Part shown: positions 503 through 9,257 of the stretch, one piece after another
Layout: each line of letters begins with the position of its first letter
Position numbering within the stretch: the first letter of the stretch is position 1
Source: Bacillota bacterium
GTDB taxonomy: Bacteria; Bacillota; Limnochordia; Darwinibacteriales; DTU012
Length of the DNA: 32,236 nt
Assembly (NCBI GenBank): GCA_012521185.1
Contig: JAAYMV010000111.1
Coordinates: 1 to 32,236, forward strand
Reading direction: 5' to 3'
The notes under the pieces: generated by a model
Told to the model about the DNA's origin: nothing
Databases searched by the model: none
Seen by the model: only the letters and a program-made list of their open reading frames with translations
Position numbers and translations under genes: made by a program

Positions 503-1276
503 TTACCGATTTACTCTTTCGATATACGCTTTGGTAAAGACATTATCAGGGATTGGACTTATTGATAATTCAGATAAAATAACCTGAGTTTTACTGCCTT
601 TTACTAACTCATCTACAAAAATCATTTGCTGCGGAATAATAAAGGAGCCGATAGTCGCATATTTTGGAAATAGAGAAGTACGCATTAAACGTTTAGTTAA
701 ACTGTATTCTTCAGCCATTAGCACTAAAGGCGTTTCTGTTTGGGTAATCCAAAGTTTGATGTAAGGATAAGTCACCGAATTACTGGTAGCCTCTAATTCA
801 ACAATATAAACTTTGTGTCCGCCAAGACTACCTTCTTCATAACCAGCCACTTCGTAATTACTAGAATAGGTCCACTGGGTAAAGTCAGAATTTCTTACAT
901 CAGACCCCTGAAAACTTTCCTTTAGAGAATTGTGAGCGAATTGACGACTGGATGGATCGTAAAACCATAAATTATCCCCTTCTAATAGGTAACCTTGCCC
1001 TTTTTGCACACTTGGTTCTTGAATTAAAAGCAAAAACTTCTCTTCACGGTCACGCCGAAACTGGTGAACAACCATCTTTTCAATCCCTTTCTCGAGATCC
1101 TCCACCACCATCGTCATCACCGATGAAAAGTCATATTCACCAAAATTAGTATTGGTATCGATTTTTTTTAAGATAGCATAAATATCAACATCGTCTTTAG
1201 CCTGTACGGCACCAAAGACGCTAAAAATCATTATTAAGCATAATGATATTATCCGTAGTCGTTGATTGAATTTCAT
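503..1276 (-). CDS. LolA-like outer membrane lipoprotein-sorting protein
   Basis: This 257-aa secreted protein has a signal peptide ending near VQA-KDDVD at residues 26-27. The mature part matches the LolA-like family of outer-membrane lipoprotein-sorting proteins. Visible features are a strand ending in HQFRRDREEKFLLLIQEP, the motif GQGYLLEGDNLWFYDPSSRQ, the motif FQGSDVRNSDFT, and a closing FTKAYIERVNR. Such proteins fold as an incomplete beta-barrel that shields a lipid or acyl chain while carrying cargo across the periplasm. The gene lies between a permease (10-base gap) and the beta-barrel gene (10-base gap), so it is probably the periplasmic carrier of the system. SD GGAGG precedes the ATG. 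The cargo is unknown: family membership is well supported, but lipoprotein sorting itself is inferred. Confidence 0.8.
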   Translation of the reverse strand: MKFNQRLRIISLCLIMIFSVFGAVQAKDDVDIYAILKKIDTNTNFGEYDFSSVMTMVVEDLEKGIEKMVVHQFRRDREEKFLLLIQEPSVQKGQGYLLEGDNLWFYDPSSRQFAHNSLKESFQGSDVRNSDFTQWTYSSNYEVAGYEEGSLGGHKVYIVELEATSNSVTYPYIKLWITQTETPLVLMAEEYSLTKRLMRTSLFPKYATIGSFIIPQQMIFVDELVKGSKTQVILSELSISPIPDNVFTKAYIERVNR

Positions 1277-1286
1277 GATTTCCTCC

Positions 1287-2588
1287 TTAATGATAAGACC
1301 CTAATGCCTTAATTGGTGATAATCTAGCTGCAGCTCTAGCAGGTAAATATGCTGCCAATAAACTCATTACCGCTAAAATAGCAAAAGTTAAACAAACAGT
1401 ACCGACACTAACCTGAAAAGTTAGATATCCATTATTTAAAAAGAACTGAAGACCAGTTACTTGGGAAAAAGAAACGAAGGATAAGACCACCATGACTAGA
1501 GAGGCACCTACTAAACCTGCTAAACCTCCGAACAGTCCTAGAAACAATGCTTCGAGTAAAAATATAGCTTTCACGGTATTTTGCTGCATGCCAAAAGCTC
1601 GCATTGTTCCAATTTCCTTTACCCTTTCGATTAAAACCATTCTAAAGGTGTTTGTAATACCCACCATAATAATCAGTAAGAGTACAAGGAAAATTCCTAA
1701 ACTAATCGCATCAATCACAGTTACCACAGCCTCAACTGGTTCCATTATATCGTTGAGGGTTAAAATCGAATATTTAACCCCTTCCCAAGGTTGAGCTAAT
1801 TCTTCTACTGCCTCAAATTGGATTCCAAAAATTGCTGATTGTTCTTCCAATCCCTTTGGTTCTCCGATTAATACATGACTAAACTTCTCAGCCACTTGGT
1901 CAAGCCGATCAACATCTTTGAGAAAGACATTCACCAATTGATAACCGTCTGACATTAAGCCCAATAAATAATTTAAGTAACCTTTATCAGCATAAGCAGC
2001 TGATATTCCGAAACTTGCTTGATCTTCAATTAAAGCTGCTACTATAAATTCGCCAACATTTTGTTGACCACTAATCGTTTCCATTTTTACCAAAATAATT
2101 TCTCCAGCTTCAATCCCTAGCCTTTGACCTAAAGGAGCTGGAATCACAATGGCGTTTTCTTGATCTAACTTAGTCAAATCACCACTAATAACTGTTAAAC
2201 TATCTAATAACTTGGTTTCTTCCTGAAAATCAACACCATAAATCAATTGCATTCCCTGTTTAGAACCGAAGATGAAGGTACCAATGGTCTGTGTCCTTTT
2301 AGTAACTCCTTCTATTTCATCGGAATAAGTAAGTAACAAATCAGATAGCTGCTGTTCATCATGAATCTGATTAATTACTTCTCCATCATCATTTAATTGT
2401 TTACCGGAAATAAAAATGTGTCCACCTAAAGCATGGGAAAAATTTACTCGAACATTTTCGACCATGCCAGCTGTAAATGAGTTTAAAACTGTAATTACCA
2501 GCATACCAAAAGCAATTGCTCCCGCCAAAAGTATGCTACGTTTCTTCTGTCTAGCAATATTCCGCAATGCTATTCGGACCGTTACCAA
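1287..2588 (-). CDS. FtsX/MacB-type ABC transporter permease (second permease)
   Basis: The 433-aa protein has the MacB/LolC-E layout. One N-terminal transmembrane helix (SILLAGAIAFGMLVITVLNS) is followed by an extracytoplasmic domain of about 240 residues. Three C-terminal helices form the FtsX domain, with the conserved stretch VLIERVKEIGTMRAFGMQQN. It lacks ATPase motifs and must pair with the ATPase at 4071-4793. I place the start at a TTG at 2588, because GAGGTG at 2595-2600 sits six bases upstream. The GTG at 2597 would overlap that SD. It follows the first permease almost without a gap. Two non-identical permeases plus one ATPase recall LolCDE rather than homodimeric MacB. It could instead be an efflux or antibiotic-resistance-type exporter, but the LolA-like and barrel neighbours argue for envelope export. 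Confidence 0.85.
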   Translation of the reverse strand: MVTVRIALRNIARQKKRSILLAGAIAFGMLVITVLNSFTAGMVENVRVNFSHALGGHIFISGKQLNDDGEVINQIHDEQQLSDLLLTYSDEIEGVTKRTQTIGTFIFGSKQGMQLIYGVDFQEETKLLDSLTVISGDLTKLDQENAIVIPAPLGQRLGIEAGEIILVKMETISGQQNVGEFIVAALIEDQASFGISAAYADKGYLNYLLGLMSDGYQLVNVFLKDVDRLDQVAEKFSHVLIGEPKGLEEQSAIFGIQFEAVEELAQPWEGVKYSILTLNDIMEPVEAVVTVIDAISLGIFLVLLLIIMVGITNTFRMVLIERVKEIGTMRAFGMQQNTVKAIFLLEALFLGLFGGLAGLVGASLVMVVLSFVSFSQVTGLQFFLNNGYLTFQVSVGTVCLTFAILAVMSLLAAYLPARAAARLSPIKALGSYH

Positions 2589-2598
2589 TTGCACCACC

Positions 2599-4074
2599 TC
2601 ATTGACTTTGCATAGCCTTTACTGGCTCTGTTTTCATTACAATTGAGGTTGGATATAAACTAGAAACAACCCCAACAACTAATACTATAATAAACGACAT
2701 GACCACTGACTCTAAGGATAAACCTGGTTTTAAAACCGGTCCGCCAAAAATAATCTCAAAAAATAGGTTTGGAGCTTTAATTCCTGTAATATTTAAAACT
2801 AATAAAATCAAACTGCCGGCTATTATTCCAATACCACCAAATACACCGGAGATTAATAAGGTTTCCCATAAAATCATGGAGCGGACGAATGTTTTCTGAG
2901 CACCAATAGCCCGCATTGTACCAATTTCACTCATTCGTTCTGTGACTGAAATGACTAAGGTATTCATAATAATTATCACAGCAACTATAGCAATTAGAAA
3001 AACAATAATGTTAAAAACAAGTTTTACGCCATAAGCCATCTCAGCTACTACTCCAGCGGCTTCTAACCAATCACTGGCTTCAGCATCAATATTGTTAACC
3101 GCAAAAAATTCATCTAATTCCTTTAATGCCCGCTTTACCATTCGTTCATCGGTTAATCTAACTAACAAAAAATGCCAGGAATGTGATTCTTCCTCTTCCT
3201 GCACTGGAGTATCCTCTGAACTAGCAAAAATGTCTAATAGTGAATCTTCGTTATAGCTTTCTGCAGTAGCTTCAATATCTACCAAGATGTTACCAAAATC
3301 ACTAAATAGACTGTCAAAATCTAACTCACCTAAGAAAACTTGCTCTTCCTCAGTGAGTTTAGCCGGAGATACATATCCTACATTCATACCACTTAAAGCA
3401 CGCATATTAGTGGCATCAACTAAGGATATTAAGTCTAGTTGAGCATTTGATTGTTTGAACTCAAAGATTCCTTTAACCTCAACTTCACGAATCTTCATGC
3501 CGCCTGTTGGGGTTACGCCTGTTAACAACAGCTTCTCTCCTGGCTGAATTAAGCGACCTAAATCCCGTTCCATATGCTCAGCCACTAAGTTGTTTAGTAC
3601 AATCCCTTCTTCACCTTTAGCTAAAAAGCTGCCTCGTATTAGCTCAATATTGTCAGGAAACATCTGTAGATAAGATTCGGGATCGATTCCAAATAATTGC
3701 ATAGCACCCTGAACTTCGTTAATACTTGCTAAGGCGACCCCAGAGATTTGCGGATTAATAAGTTCTACATAAGGTAAAGACTCTAAAAAACTCACAATTT
3801 CTTCGTAATCATGTAATGTAGGGATGTTTTGCTCTAAGATAGTAAGATCTTGAAAGCCAAATAAGGTTAAGTTTCCCTGATGCTTACCGCTAATCATAAT
3901 ATGCCCTGTAAAGTTCTTTATGTAAGAGCGTTCAATACCAGCTGTAGCTGAATCCATCAATGAGTTACCTACAATTAATACTGTTATACCAACTGCAATT
4001 AAAGTTCCGATAATTAAAGTTTTAGTGCGATGTTCTTTTAAATTTCTCCAGGCAATTTTTAACAACACACTCAT
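2599..4074 (-). CDS. FtsX/MacB-type ABC transporter permease (first permease)
   Basis: This is a 491-aa permease with an N-terminal helix (TLIIGTLIAVGITVLIVGNS). A large extracytoplasmic domain runs to about residue 350 and includes an acidic stretch around DTPVQEEEESHSW. Three C-terminal helices follow, with the FtsX signature VTERMSEIGTMRAIGAQK. The start ATG overlaps the end of the ATPase gene by four bases (ATGA), so translation is probably coupled. The protein is about 60 residues longer than its partner at 1287-2588, mostly in the periplasmic domain. The two permeases are therefore likely to have different periplasmic jobs, as LolC and LolE do. In the Lol model such a permease extracts lipidated cargo from the inner membrane and passes it to a LolA-type carrier. 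That role is inferred from the neighbours. Confidence 0.87.
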   Translation of the reverse strand: MSVLLKIAWRNLKEHRTKTLIIGTLIAVGITVLIVGNSLMDSATAGIERSYIKNFTGHIMISGKHQGNLTLFGFQDLTILEQNIPTLHDYEEIVSFLESLPYVELINPQISGVALASINEVQGAMQLFGIDPESYLQMFPDNIELIRGSFLAKGEEGIVLNNLVAEHMERDLGRLIQPGEKLLLTGVTPTGGMKIREVEVKGIFEFKQSNAQLDLISLVDATNMRALSGMNVGYVSPAKLTEEEQVFLGELDFDSLFSDFGNILVDIEATAESYNEDSLLDIFASSEDTPVQEEEESHSWHFLLVRLTDERMVKRALKELDEFFAVNNIDAEASDWLEAAGVVAEMAYGVKLVFNIIVFLIAIVAVIIIMNTLVISVTERMSEIGTMRAIGAQKTFVRSMILWETLLISGVFGGIGIIAGSLILLVLNITGIKAPNLFFEIIFGGPVLKPGLSLESVVMSFIIVLVVGVVSSLYPTSIVMKTEPVKAMQSQ

Positions 4075-4793
4075 TGACTGACCCCTGCCGTTTCATTATA
4101 TTCTGCCTTATGGGTTTCTTCTACAATTCTGCCGTCTAATAAGCGAATAATGTGATCGGCAATTCCAACAATTGTAGAATCATGAGTGGAAAAGATGAAT
4201 GTGGTATTTAATTCCGCATTCATTTTTTTCATTAACTCAATAATGGTCTGCCCAGTTTTCGAATCTAAATTGGCCGTAGGTTCATCAGCTAAGACTATTT
4301 GAGGTTTAGTAACTAACGCACGAGCAATAGCTACCCTTTGCCGCTGACCACCTGATAATTCATTGGGCTTATGCTTAATAAAGTTGGTTAATTCTACTGC
4401 TTCGACTAGGTATTCGATCCATTCCTCGCGTTCTCGCTTCGGCATCCGATTTTTCCCTAATAACAGTGGAAATTCTATATTTTCATAAACATTTAAAACT
4501 GGAATTAAGTTAAAGGATTGAAAGATAAAACCTAAAACCTCATGCCTTAAAGTAGTTAGCTGTTTATCATTCAAACCTGAAGTACTTTGGCCAGCAATAC
4601 TTACTATTCCATCAGTCGGTTGATCAATACAACCGATCATATTAAGAATCGTTGATTTACCCGAACCTGAAGGGCCAATTAGTGAAATAAAATCACCTTT
4701 TTTAATATCAAAAGTGACACCCTTAACAGCATGCACTTGAGTTTTTCCTAACTCATACGTTTTCTTTACATCTTTCAACTGGACAATTGGCAT
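4071..4793 (-). CDS. LolD/MacB-type ABC transporter ATP-binding protein
   Basis: The 240-aa nucleotide-binding protein has all ABC motifs. Walker A is GPSGSGKST (residues 40-48), the Q-loop lies in FIFQSFNL, the signature is LSGGQRQRVAIARAL (from 146), Walker B is IVLADEPTANLD (from 166), and the H-loop is in STHD. The overall pattern (IGCIDQPTDGIVSIAG and the NLDSKTG after Walker B) is that of the LolD/MacB/FtsE branch, which powers mechanotransmission-type transporters rather than classical import or export. It heads the operon ATPase, permease, permease, LolA-like, beta-barrel, with gaps of -4, 10 (1 if the GTG at 2597 is used), 10 and 10 bases. SD GGGAGTG precedes the ATG. An extended -10 promoter lies just upstream, but no terminator separates it from the M28-like gene, so read-through is possible. 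Confidence 0.93.
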   Translation of the reverse strand: MPIVQLKDVKKTYELGKTQVHAVKGVTFDIKKGDFISLIGPSGSGKSTILNMIGCIDQPTDGIVSIAGQSTSGLNDKQLTTLRHEVLGFIFQSFNLIPVLNVYENIEFPLLLGKNRMPKREREEWIEYLVEAVELTNFIKHKPNELSGGQRQRVAIARALVTKPQIVLADEPTANLDSKTGQTIIELMKKMNAELNTTFIFSTHDSTIVGIADHIIRLLDGRIVEETHKAEYNETAGVSQ

Positions 4794-4866: not shown

Positions 4867-7137
4867 TTAATTAAAAACATAGGTTTTGCTAAGAATCGTT
4901 GTATCTGTTATTGGCGTTGGAGCCGGTATCAAATATTCTGGTCTTTGAATAAAATTGTCTCCAAAAAAGTCTGGCAATCCGTATAATTGACTTAAAATAG
5001 TAATACTAAAATTACTATCAATTGCTGTGGGTACTACTAAATTAATTCCTTCAGCAGGAATGTTATAGTAACGAAATACCGGCCAGTGTTCCTCCCAGGC
5101 AACCATATTACCAGCAATTTCTACCTGTTCTGTTACTAATTCCGGCTTGATATGCACGATCAAGCTAACATGCTCCTGTAGGGGTTTAACATGAAGATGT
5201 ATTTCCCTAACCTCTTCCCGAATCACTTCTCCTATTAAGTTGACAGCAACAGGCGACTCATTCCATTTTGGAGCTGACCCTTTTATTATCGGAACATATT
5301 CATAAGGAATTAAATGCTGAAGGTTATCTGCAGTAAATCCTGCCGGGAAAAACTGTTCCGTAAACTCATCCAAATCTAAATCAATACTTACCCAGTAAGC
5401 TTGTTCCTGATCTAAATCAGCATAATAGAAAATGCTATTCATTCCCGGTTGAGTCGCAGTCACTCCTGATTGATTATATACCATAACTATACTAAAAAGC
5501 AAAAGCACTAAAGATATTGCTGGTAAAATCCGAACATTCAAATCTTTGATTTCCTTAATTAAAGGCAGTAATAAGCCTAGAGCATAAACAAATAAAAGCA
5601 TTAGAATGCCACTAGAACTTAATCCTAAAATTACAAAAACTTGTTTAAGTAAAACTGGCCAAAGGGTGATAACTGGAACAAAACTCAATAGAATGGCAAT
5701 CGCCCTGATTATCCAAGAAGGCTCATCCCACTGAAGATATAATAAGGTACCAAGTAGACTGAAAAGGTATGGCCAAATAAAGAGATAACTTGTGCCTGGT
5801 AAGAACAAGGAAATAAAAATCGTAATAACTAACCAAACAATTTGTGTTCCAAAAATTAAGTCTAACTCTTCTAATTTATTAAATGCCCATGAATAGAGTA
5901 GGATAAATAAAGTAGCTGTTAAAGAGCTAAGACCAACCAAATACCAGATGCCATTATTAGGTTGTACATATTTATATAATGGATGATTTGGAACTAGCCA
6001 ATTTCCTACATAACTCATCAGTACGCCGCTAAATAATCCTATGAGAGCAAAAATCAAAATGCCATAGAGGATTCCCTTTAGATTAAAGCGGTAATTCTTC
6101 ATGCCTTGCCAAACTACAATACCAAACATAATTATAGTTATCGTGATCAAGTTTGCTATCCAAGTAATTGGATAATGAACTAACCTTAAACCAAACAAGT
6201 CAAAATAAATCTGATCTATTTGAGAAATTTCTTGCAGCTCAAGATTACCAAAATGTTTAACTAATTGTAGCAGATTATTTCCCTGTTGCTGAATGCTAGT
6301 TAAATCGATATTCTCCAAATTATCAAATGCTGTATGGTAATAAGTAGGCTTGTCCAAATATGCTAAATTAAGACCTGGTATCTGTGCCTGATTAAAGACA
6401 GTAAAGCTGTGATCATGATTCATTAATCGATACAATTCATGAATAAAAGAATTTCCTAATGGCTGACTAACTGCCTGAGCATACTGGGAAATTAGCCATC
6501 CATTTCTTCGGCTAGTACCAAATAACACTGAAGCACCACTTGTGCCTCTGGCTTCAGCATTCAATACTAAACCAACCTCTTCCATCCAAGGATGTTGTTC
6601 AGCAAAGGCTAAGGCTCCTAAAGCGCCAATTTCACCTGCGTCAGCAAATAAAATAATCAAGTCATTTTTTAAAGGTGCTTCCGCTAAAACTACTCTCACT
6701 ATTTCCAGCACGCTAGCTACTGCTGCTTTATTTGCATTCGCACCTGGGGATGTAGGCATAGAATCATAATTAGCAACTAGTAAAATTGCTTTACTACTTT
6801 CACTACCGGGAATACGTGTCACAACATTATTGATAACTGCACCTGTCCGCCAATATGGATTTATTGCATAAGCTGATTGTATTTCTGGATTAAGCCCTAA
6901 TTCTGATAATACATTCACCAGATAATCTCTAACCTGCTTATGTTGTTCGCTGCCAACTGGTGTTGGTTCAACAGCAATTTCAGCCAAATGATCAAGTACT
7001 TGCTTGGTAACAAATCCATCCTCTGTTTGTGATATTGCCTGTGGCTGACGATAACCATACATCGTTACACCGGTTATGATTATAAAAACAACTAAGGATA
7101 TAATAATGATTCTTATTTTTTCCCGCTTCATATTCAT
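4867..7137 (-). CDS. Membrane-bound M28-family peptidase-like protein, probable pseudoenzyme
   Basis: This 756-aa protein has an N-terminal signal-anchor helix (residues 8-28) and an M28 zinc-peptidase-like domain (about 45-300). Around eight transmembrane helices follow (about 320-550), then a 190-residue extracytoplasmic tail rich in beta strands. This layout resembles the ERMP1/Pff1 type of M28 protein. The fold is recognisable from NYDSMPTSPGAN, LNAEARGTSG and YYHTAFDN. The catalytic set is broken, however: the first metal-ligand His of HYDS is Asn123, the bridging Asp of GAxD is Ala135, and the general-base Glu of the DGEE motif is Gly168. Glu169, Glu195 and His268 remain. The start is the ATG at 7137, five bases after GGAGG; an upstream TTG at 7161 has no SD. 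It has its own promoter and lies directly upstream of the Lol-like operon. A binding or chaperone role is possible; its function is unknown. Confidence 0.8.
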   Translation of the reverse strand: MNMKREKIRIIIISLVVFIIITGVTMYGYRQPQAISQTEDGFVTKQVLDHLAEIAVEPTPVGSEQHKQVRDYLVNVLSELGLNPEIQSAYAINPYWRTGAVINNVVTRIPGSESSKAILLVANYDSMPTSPGANANKAAVASVLEIVRVVLAEAPLKNDLIILFADAGEIGALGALAFAEQHPWMEEVGLVLNAEARGTSGASVLFGTSRRNGWLISQYAQAVSQPLGNSFIHELYRLMNHDHSFTVFNQAQIPGLNLAYLDKPTYYHTAFDNLENIDLTSIQQQGNNLLQLVKHFGNLELQEISQIDQIYFDLFGLRLVHYPITWIANLITITIIMFGIVVWQGMKNYRFNLKGILYGILIFALIGLFSGVLMSYVGNWLVPNHPLYKYVQPNNGIWYLVGLSSLTATLFILLYSWAFNKLEELDLIFGTQIVWLVITIFISLFLPGTSYLFIWPYLFSLLGTLLYLQWDEPSWIIRAIAILLSFVPVITLWPVLLKQVFVILGLSSSGILMLLFVYALGLLLPLIKEIKDLNVRILPAISLVLLLFSIVMVYNQSGVTATQPGMNSIFYYADLDQEQAYWVSIDLDLDEFTEQFFPAGFTADNLQHLIPYEYVPIIKGSAPKWNESPVAVNLIGEVIREEVREIHLHVKPLQEHVSLIVHIKPELVTEQVEIAGNMVAWEEHWPVFRYYNIPAEGINLVVPTAIDSNFSITILSQLYGLPDFFGDNFIQRPEYLIPAPTPITDTTILSKTYVFN

Positions 7138-7177: not shown

Positions 7178-7206
7178 ATTATAAACAATTTCTGTAGAAA
7201 TAACAA
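7178..7206 (-). promoter_or_regulatory. Sigma-A-type promoter of the M28-like gene
   Basis: The minus strand carries TTGTTA (7201-7206), a 17-base spacer and TATAAT (7178-7183). The start codon is about 40 bases downstream. It diverges from the chemoreceptor promoter. Confidence 0.6.
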
Positions 7207-7334: not shown

Positions 7335-9257
7335 TTGTCTTTTACAAAAAGTATTAAAACCAGACTAATATCGCTATTTTTAATTATTGGCCTAATTCCA
7401 GCGATAACTGTGAGTTTAATTTTTTTTAATCGCTTAGTTTCTAATGAACGTGAAGTGGTTGCTCGTGATAGCCATACTGTGGCTACTACCATTAGAAATA
7501 ATTTAGAATTAGACCGCCAATACAGAGAAGAACAAGCAAGTATTCTTGCTGCTAATGATGCTATCGCATTACCTGTTACTATTATGAGTCAATCTGATAA
7601 AAACTCAAGTATTTGGCGCTCCAATACACTTATGAATGGAATTAACCGCGTTGCAGAAGATTATAAAGATGATTTTGTAGACATATTTGTAGCAGTTTAT
7701 GAAGACATAGTTTACAATCCACAAGGAACCTTTTTTGACTATTCTAGCGCAATCGAAGAAATCAATGACATAATCAATTCTAATACTGTCGGATGGTCAC
7801 CTTGGATATGGTCTGATGCACTTGAAACCTACGTTATATTCACCATTGCCCCAATTCGTAATGTAGCCGGCGATGCTGTCGGAGTTATAGGCTTAGGTAC
7901 AGCTTACGACGAAATTCATAATAAGTTAATGATTGAAAATCAAAACGAAAGTCTTGAATATGATGTTTACCTAGTCGACGCCAATGGAACCCTACAAAGT
8001 AATCCTAAAGATCCCAACTTATCAATGTTAACAAGCAAAATTAATACCAAAGCCGTAGAAATGTTCTCAGCAGCATTAGCCAATAACGAGCTAGATTTCG
8101 CCGATAGTACAGAATACATAGGTTATCATGGTGAACCTGTTCTCGGCTATGTTAGTGCGGTTATGTTAGGTGATGAGCCAGCTGCTGTAGTCATTGAAGC
8201 TTTAGCTGATCAAGCTTTTGCAGGTGTAAAAAGATCCCAAAGTCTAGTTATCGTTATTATCATTATAACTGCAATTGTAATCAGTGTTACAAGCTTTTTC
8301 ATCGCTCAAGGTATTATTAAACCAATCCTTGAATTAGTCACCTTCACTGAAAAAGCAGCTAACGGTGATTTATCAGTCCAAGTGTCAACAAATCGTGAGG
8401 ATGAATTCGGTAGACTATTTAATGCCTTTAATAAGATGGCTGATAATTTACGTGAGATGATTTCCTCAATTACTAGTGCAATCCATAATGCATCTTCTGC
8501 TAGTGAAGAACTTTCTGCCGCTAGTGAGGAAAACTCAGCTACGATTGAAGAAATTGTAGCTGCCATTCAAACCTATGCTGAAGCTATTAAAAACGTTAGT
8601 CAAAACGCAAATTCAATGGCTGCCCAAGCCCAGGAAGTTGTTAAACGTGCAGAAGCAGGTAAAGCGCAAATGGCACACTCCAATGAAACCATGCTCAATA
8701 TATTACGGTCATCACAAGAATCACAAACTAAAATTAATGATTTACAACAAGCAACTAACCAAATCGATCAAGTTATCAATATTATATCCGATGTTGCTGA
8801 ACAAACCAATCTTTTAGCACTAAATGCTGCTATTGAAGCTGCCAGAGCTGGCGAACATGGTCGCGGCTTTGCTGTAGTTGCTGACGAAGTAAGAAAATTA
8901 GCTGAACAAACTCAGGAATCAGTTGGCGTAATTATGAACAGCATCGACCATCTAAGAACCGGTACAGCTCAAGTAGTAGATGTAATTCAAGTCAACAATG
9001 AGCAAATCGAAGATGGAGCTGAAATATTAAGAAGAGCCCAAACAGACTTTGACCAAATCGAGGAAAGTATTTCAGCTACAGTTAAACTGATAAATGAAGT
9101 AGCTGATTCTGGTCATCGACTGGACATTGGAATGGCCGAAATGGCAGCTTCTGCTGAAGAACAAGCAGCATCTATCGTTCAAATTACTCAAAATGCTGAG
9201 TCTGTTGCTAGAATGGCAGAAGAGATGTCAAAGTTAGTTAAAAGATTTAAAGTTTAA
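7335..9257 (+). CDS. Methyl-accepting chemotaxis protein with Cache sensor
   Basis: The 640-aa chemoreceptor has one transmembrane helix at residues 11-31. A double-Cache-like extracytoplasmic sensor spans about 35-300 (key stretches [17 protein letters not shown] and [18 protein letters not shown]). A second helix covers 304-327, a HAMP domain about 328-380, and the cytoplasmic signalling bundle runs to the end. The conserved hairpin tip is present ([20 protein letters not shown], then [17 protein letters not shown]), so it should bind CheA/CheW. The start is TTG at 7335, eight bases after AAGGAGGG; no in-frame ATG has comparable support. It is transcribed alone between a divergent promoter and a terminator. 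The ligand cannot be read from sequence, though Cache domains commonly sense amino acids or carboxylates. The adjacent peptide-type transporter is on the opposite strand. Its presence implies a motile organism. Confidence 0.95.

Follow-up and report, generated by a model that had tools for sequence, protein, structure and literature searches.

A nine-helix M28-like membrane protein of Limnochordia is likely a maintained pseudoenzyme

Our analysis indicates that a minus-strand gene in the window (the whole 32,236-nucleotide stretch of Bacillota DNA analysed here) probably encodes a maintained pseudoenzyme of the M28 peptidase family. The protein would belong to a bacterial ERMP1-like branch, with its M28 domain acting as a binding or docking module that performs no peptide hydrolysis. 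Judged by its residues, it is most likely a binding or scaffold protein and not a protein-cutting enzyme. A sequence-only reading of the window had proposed a pseudoenzyme at this locus. The homologues support that proposal, as the whole clade has lost the bridging Asp together with the general-base Glu and by sequence has neither a complete di-zinc site nor a general base.

Results

Gene product and predicted architecture

The frame is open from position 7137 down to 4867, across 756 codons and a stop, as had been claimed. The proposed M28 alignment is borne out by PF04389 (Peptidase_M28), which matches residues 104-292 over profile positions 1-192 of 193 (E 3.6e-35). At 121.9 bits against a curated cut-off of 21.3, the whole domain belongs to the family by homology. 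The AlphaFold2 model (pLDDT 92, pTM 0.92, from an alignment of 46 rows) has one helix, the M28 domain, eight helices, and a beta domain, in that order. Its nine helices span residues 2-27, 326-347, 353-384, 396-421, 424-445, 451-469, 475-504, 506-533, and 537-556. The M28 domain thus lies between helix 1 and helix 2, as in ERMP1-like proteins, and this confidently modelled architecture backs the suggested ERMP1/Pff1-like kinship. The best solved matches in Foldseek cover the M28 domain only and are the Streptomyces griseus aminopeptidase (E 2e-12), glutaminyl cyclases, and the Aeromonas (Vibrio proteolytica) aminopeptidase (E 4e-11). A search of the source genome found no second nine-helix M28 protein; its other PF04389 matches are frames of 329-375 residues, M20/M42-like by our reading.

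The gene had also been credited with its own promoter. Both a GGAGG site and a TTGTTA-17-TATAAT match precede the ATG, which makes a promoter plausible, but the region holds 10 such promoter-like matches against 11.7 in shuffles, so the count is no better than chance.

Table 1. Coordinates in the window of the putative pseudoenzyme gene, its predicted parts, site residues, and flanking features
Feature	Position	Strand	Basis or remark
M28-like nine-helix membrane protein, putative pseudoenzyme gene	4867..7137	-	756 aa, ATG start; frame, PF04389, AlphaFold2
N-terminal membrane helix, residues 2-27	7057..7134	-	AlphaFold2 helix 2-27; hydropathy peak 8-26
M28 domain, residues 44-300, predicted extracytoplasmic	6238..7008	-	PF04389 at residues 104-292; Foldseek M28 aminopeptidases, E 2e-12
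Eight further membrane helices, residues 326-556	5470..6162	-	AlphaFold2 helices; hydropathy
C-terminal beta domain, residues 565-755	4873..5445	-	AlphaFold2 strands
Asn123 (AAT), replaces metal-ligand His (AAP His97; S. pombe Ermp1 His161)	6769..6771	-	75/75 intact homologues and the orthologues have His
Ala135 (GCA), replaces bridging Asp (AAP Asp117; Ermp1 Asp173)	6733..6735	-	Orthologues S/N/S/G
Lys137	6727..6729	-	In 5/5 dead proteins and the intact sister L008; none of the other intact homologues scored has it
Gly168, replaces general-base Glu (AAP Glu151; Ermp1 Glu207)	6634..6636	-	5/5 clade members have Gly, 75/75 intact homologues Glu
Glu169, metal-ligand position kept (AAP Glu152)	6631..6633	-	Homologue alignment
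Glu195, kept in the window protein	6553..6555	-	A/M/A in three orthologues, D in one
His268, kept in the window protein	6334..6336	-	K/Q/Q/Q in orthologues
Promoter-like TTGTTA-17-TATAAT 5' of the gene	7178..7206	-	Not above chance by count
Divergent dCache methyl-accepting chemotaxis protein	7335..9257	+	Neighbour kept in three sister genomes

Loss of the di-zinc site

Site positions were set by alignment to Bacillus subtilis YwaD (6hc6) and by an alignment of about 85 homologues. In both, Asn123 falls on the ligand His of the HYD motif, Ala135 on the bridging Asp, and Gly168 on the first Glu of the EE pair; these are the three substitutions that the sequence-only reading had named, and its codon positions are exact (Table 1). 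Out of the five ligands (H, bridging D, E, D/E, H), the window protein has lost two and the orthologues two or three, and the Glu that should precede the ligand Glu as general base is Gly in all five clade members. The alignment shows no other residues supplying the missing ligands. Eight positions (H123, D125, D135, D166, E168, E169, H268, and D272) are 100% conserved in the 75 intact-site homologues. Since the residues changed in the window protein are invariably H, D, and E in these homologues, the pattern is not a chance one.

A profile search of about 85,000 species genomes found 80 loci, spread over many phyla; the single window protein, used as query in the same contig search of genomes, gave no match. 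Among eight other genomes of the same family, five carry an orthologue. Four of these orthologues are full length, with open frames of 765-792 aa and about 41% identity, and come from a sister genus. A sixth genome (G002) has a more distant member in a different clade. A contig end removes the N-terminal half of the G008 orthologue, and site states therefore cover the remaining four. For the five dead proteins (the window protein and L002-L005, in this order) the states are N, H, H, H, H at position 123; A, S, N, S, G at 135; G throughout at 168; E throughout at 169; E, D, A, M, A at 195; and H, K, Q, Q, Q at 268. Loss of D135 and E168 is thus common to all five, as is Ala at position 165 in place of the usual Thr. 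Beyond this the losses differ. Neither the bridging Asp nor the last His is present in any of the four orthologues, three lack the third ligand, and all keep the first His; the window protein shows the opposite, with His123 lost and E195 and H268 kept, save that L002 has Asp195. The substitutions do not therefore mark a lone decaying allele, since the orthologues are dead as well, through partly different residues.

Because E169, E195, and H268 preserve three of the five ligand positions, the window protein may weakly bind one metal. This retention, and the single zinc bound by the distant M28-like protein CA_C2195 (PMC4000134), would suit a protein that is still an enzyme but with a changed mechanism, using one metal on Glu169/Glu195/His268 or a metal-free reaction. 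However, the orthologues have lost His268 and mostly Glu195, so no metal site is common to the clade. Furthermore, the base Glu is Gly in the whole clade, and Glu151 to Ala in the Aeromonas aminopeptidase (AAP) leaves no detectable activity. We therefore regard continued catalysis as quite improbable.

History of inactivation

In a tree built without the motif columns (support as bootstrap/SH-aLRT), the window protein and L002-L006 form one clade (100/99), and its sister is L008, whose site is intact (100/99). A quick tree of 56 rows agrees on both the dead clade and its sister. As the dead clade is monophyletic and its sister intact, these sequences suggest that inactivation probably happened once, followed by erosion that differed by lineage.

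Lys137 lies two residues past the lost bridging Asp position. Since it is common to the dead clade and the intact L008 and lies close to the lost Asp, its gain could predate the loss of ligands; if true, this would record the order of the steps. As a hypothesis only, Glu169 and Lys137 may form an ion pair in the vacated metal site.

Selection on the dead domain

dN/dS was estimated by pairwise methods; between the window gene and its orthologues dS is saturated, and the values rest on pairs inside genus g4. For the M28 domain, dead pairs gave 0.12-0.14 (L002/L005) and about 0.07 (L003/L004), and the intact pair L041/L054 gave a similar value of about 0.1. The dN/dS check that the sequence-only reading had called for thus returned low values among g4 orthologues. 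With the orthologue frames open, its claim that the gene is maintained and not decaying holds: the loss is common to orthologues, frames are kept, and purifying selection still acts on the fold residues, the membrane helices, and the C-terminal domain. A decaying gene whose frame stayed open by luck would account for catalytic residues lost differently between lineages, but not for the five genomes with a full-length open frame (about 41% identity), dN/dS of about 0.1, and conserved fold residues. We give decay next to no credence, and for the clade it is already refuted.

Outside the site, the five clade members all retain nine of the 11 other 100%-invariant columns. In the membrane and C-terminal parts, 10 of the 12 highly conserved columns have not changed. 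Conserved columns altered in the clade number 23 of 57 in the M28 domain and pocket versus 2 of 12 elsewhere, and they include site and pocket positions (H123, D135, T165, E168, F206, E207, T208, Y236, D244, N257, Y267, and H268). At 0.65-0.68 times the mean rate for the membrane and C-terminal parts, the dead M28 domain still changes more slowly than any other. In comparison sets with intact metal ligands this relative rate is 0.33-0.70, mostly 0.33-0.45, so that, measured against the remainder of the protein, the dead domain changes more rapidly than its counterparts in most intact sets. Because its dN/dS resembles that of intact pairs and its relative rate is 0.65-0.68 against 0.33-0.70, we consider the domain somewhat relaxed but clearly constrained.

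The raised relative rate and the concentration of altered columns in the M28 domain and pocket would also fit a passive leftover, kept for stability, with the selected function residing in the eight-helix part and the C-terminal beta domain. Nevertheless, M28 is still the most conserved domain in the clade, with dN/dS of about 0.1, and it keeps fold residues unconnected with catalysis. Thus, a purely structural remnant seems unlikely to us.

Gene neighbourhood

Upstream of the gene, a dCache chemotaxis receptor and an Opp-type transporter are found here and in three g4 genomes (four in total); in G004 neither adjoins the gene. Downstream, an RNase Z-like metallo-beta-lactamase-fold gene begins no more than about 30 bases from the stop, or overlaps it, in G008 and in three g4 genomes, and three of these four genomes also have the receptor and the Opp transporter upstream. 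This gene lies directly 3' in g4 and g5 genomes (7668-8453 in L012, 1879-2697 in L016), and an HxHxDH motif was read in the L012 copy. A functional link to it fails in G000 and G004. Directly downstream in the window, positions 503-4793 encode an ABC ATPase, two FtsX/MacB-type permeases, and a LolA_like protein, a LolCDE/LolA-like set. A functional link to these genes was rejected, as the pseudoenzyme-bearing g4 and g5 genomes lack the permease encoded at 2599-4074. No partner gene was common to all the neighbourhoods examined.

Other altered sites in the family

The family and order of the window genome also hold a separate nine-helix M28 clade (L007, L009, L010, L011) in which the base Glu is His and all metal ligands are intact. 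Its motif is D-G/A-H-E-Y-G, with the common changes R197Q, N241F, T243N, and N257G. A common origin of this clade with the dead clade was rejected (AU test, p 0.026). The Aeromonas aminopeptidase E151H mutant has been described as functional (PDB 2anp), and the Glu-to-His clade is the natural counterpart of this laboratory mutant. Two genomes (L019, 10036-11578; L020, 5622-7074) encode an ABC ATPase and a UPF0014 (FetB-like) membrane protein right after their Glu-to-His M28 gene. In a Gemmatimonadota homologue (L101), Ala occupies the place of the general base (DGAELG) and HYD reads HSD; this may be a third change of independent origin.

Discussion

In the course of events that we favor, the common ancestor of the clade would have lost the bridging Asp and the base Glu, and the remaining metal ligands would then have eroded differently in each lineage. 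Such a protein could neither assemble a di-zinc centre nor activate water, and hence would not hydrolyze peptides. Its M28 domain, predicted to be extracytoplasmic and carried on nine helices, would dock a protein or peptide partner as a scaffold or receptor, much like GPAA1. We can offer a more specific form of this proposal only tentatively: a nine-helix M28 peptidase would have become a receptor or scaffold in the membrane that takes up contact with peptides or exported proteins, Lys137 would stand in for the charge of the lost metal, and the outcome would be an independently evolved counterpart of GPAA1 in bacteria.

Dead M28 relatives have been described before, chiefly in animals and other eukaryotes (GPAA1, the transferrin receptors), and MEROPS listed over 550 non-peptidase M28 homologues, few of them characterised (PMC4000134). 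What is new here is a maintained bacterial nine-helix clade. Since the dead clade, its intact sister, and varied states of erosion are available together, the passage from an enzyme to a pseudoenzyme can be traced and tested step by step. The automatic label "M28 peptidase", assigned far above the Pfam cut-off, would mislead on activity for the dead clade. Our search of the open-access literature turned up no account of bacterial nine-helix M28 proteins with a dead site, and none of nicastrin/nicalin as M28 pseudoenzymes.

The window protein shares its nine-transmembrane M28 architecture with the ERMP1/Fxna/Pff1-like M28 peptidases. The site residues of S. pombe Ermp1 are His161, Asp173, Glu207, Glu208, Glu234, and His307 (PMC11120530). 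Ligands and base come in a like order and spacing in the two proteins, from which the residue match is inferred, but Ermp1 has all of the site residues and the window protein lacks the His, the Asp, and the base Glu. L008 (from the Limnochordia genome G011) and the nine-helix M28 proteins of Nostoc, Acidobacteriota, and Bacteroidota have equal length and architecture at about 27-36% identity; unlike the window protein, they keep an intact HYD / D / EE / E / YH site. The S. griseus and Aeromonas (Vibrio proteolytica) aminopeptidases share the M28 fold but are soluble, active di-zinc enzymes.

The transferrin receptors are single-pass receptors. In transferrin receptors 1 and 2, a catalytically dead M28 domain is used to bind protein (PMC4000134), although these animal proteins differ in overall architecture. 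GPAA1 has an M28-like fold without the zinc motif, its candidate residues can be mutated without effect, and substrate recruitment has been proposed as its role (PMC9098846). Like the window protein, it combines an M28-like soluble domain lacking the zinc-binding motif with membrane helices. In contrast to the window protein, GPAA1 is eukaryotic, works in a multi-subunit complex (the GPI transamidase), has a membrane part without recognised homology, and lost its site independently. Even so, GPAA1 is the best functional analogue of the window protein.
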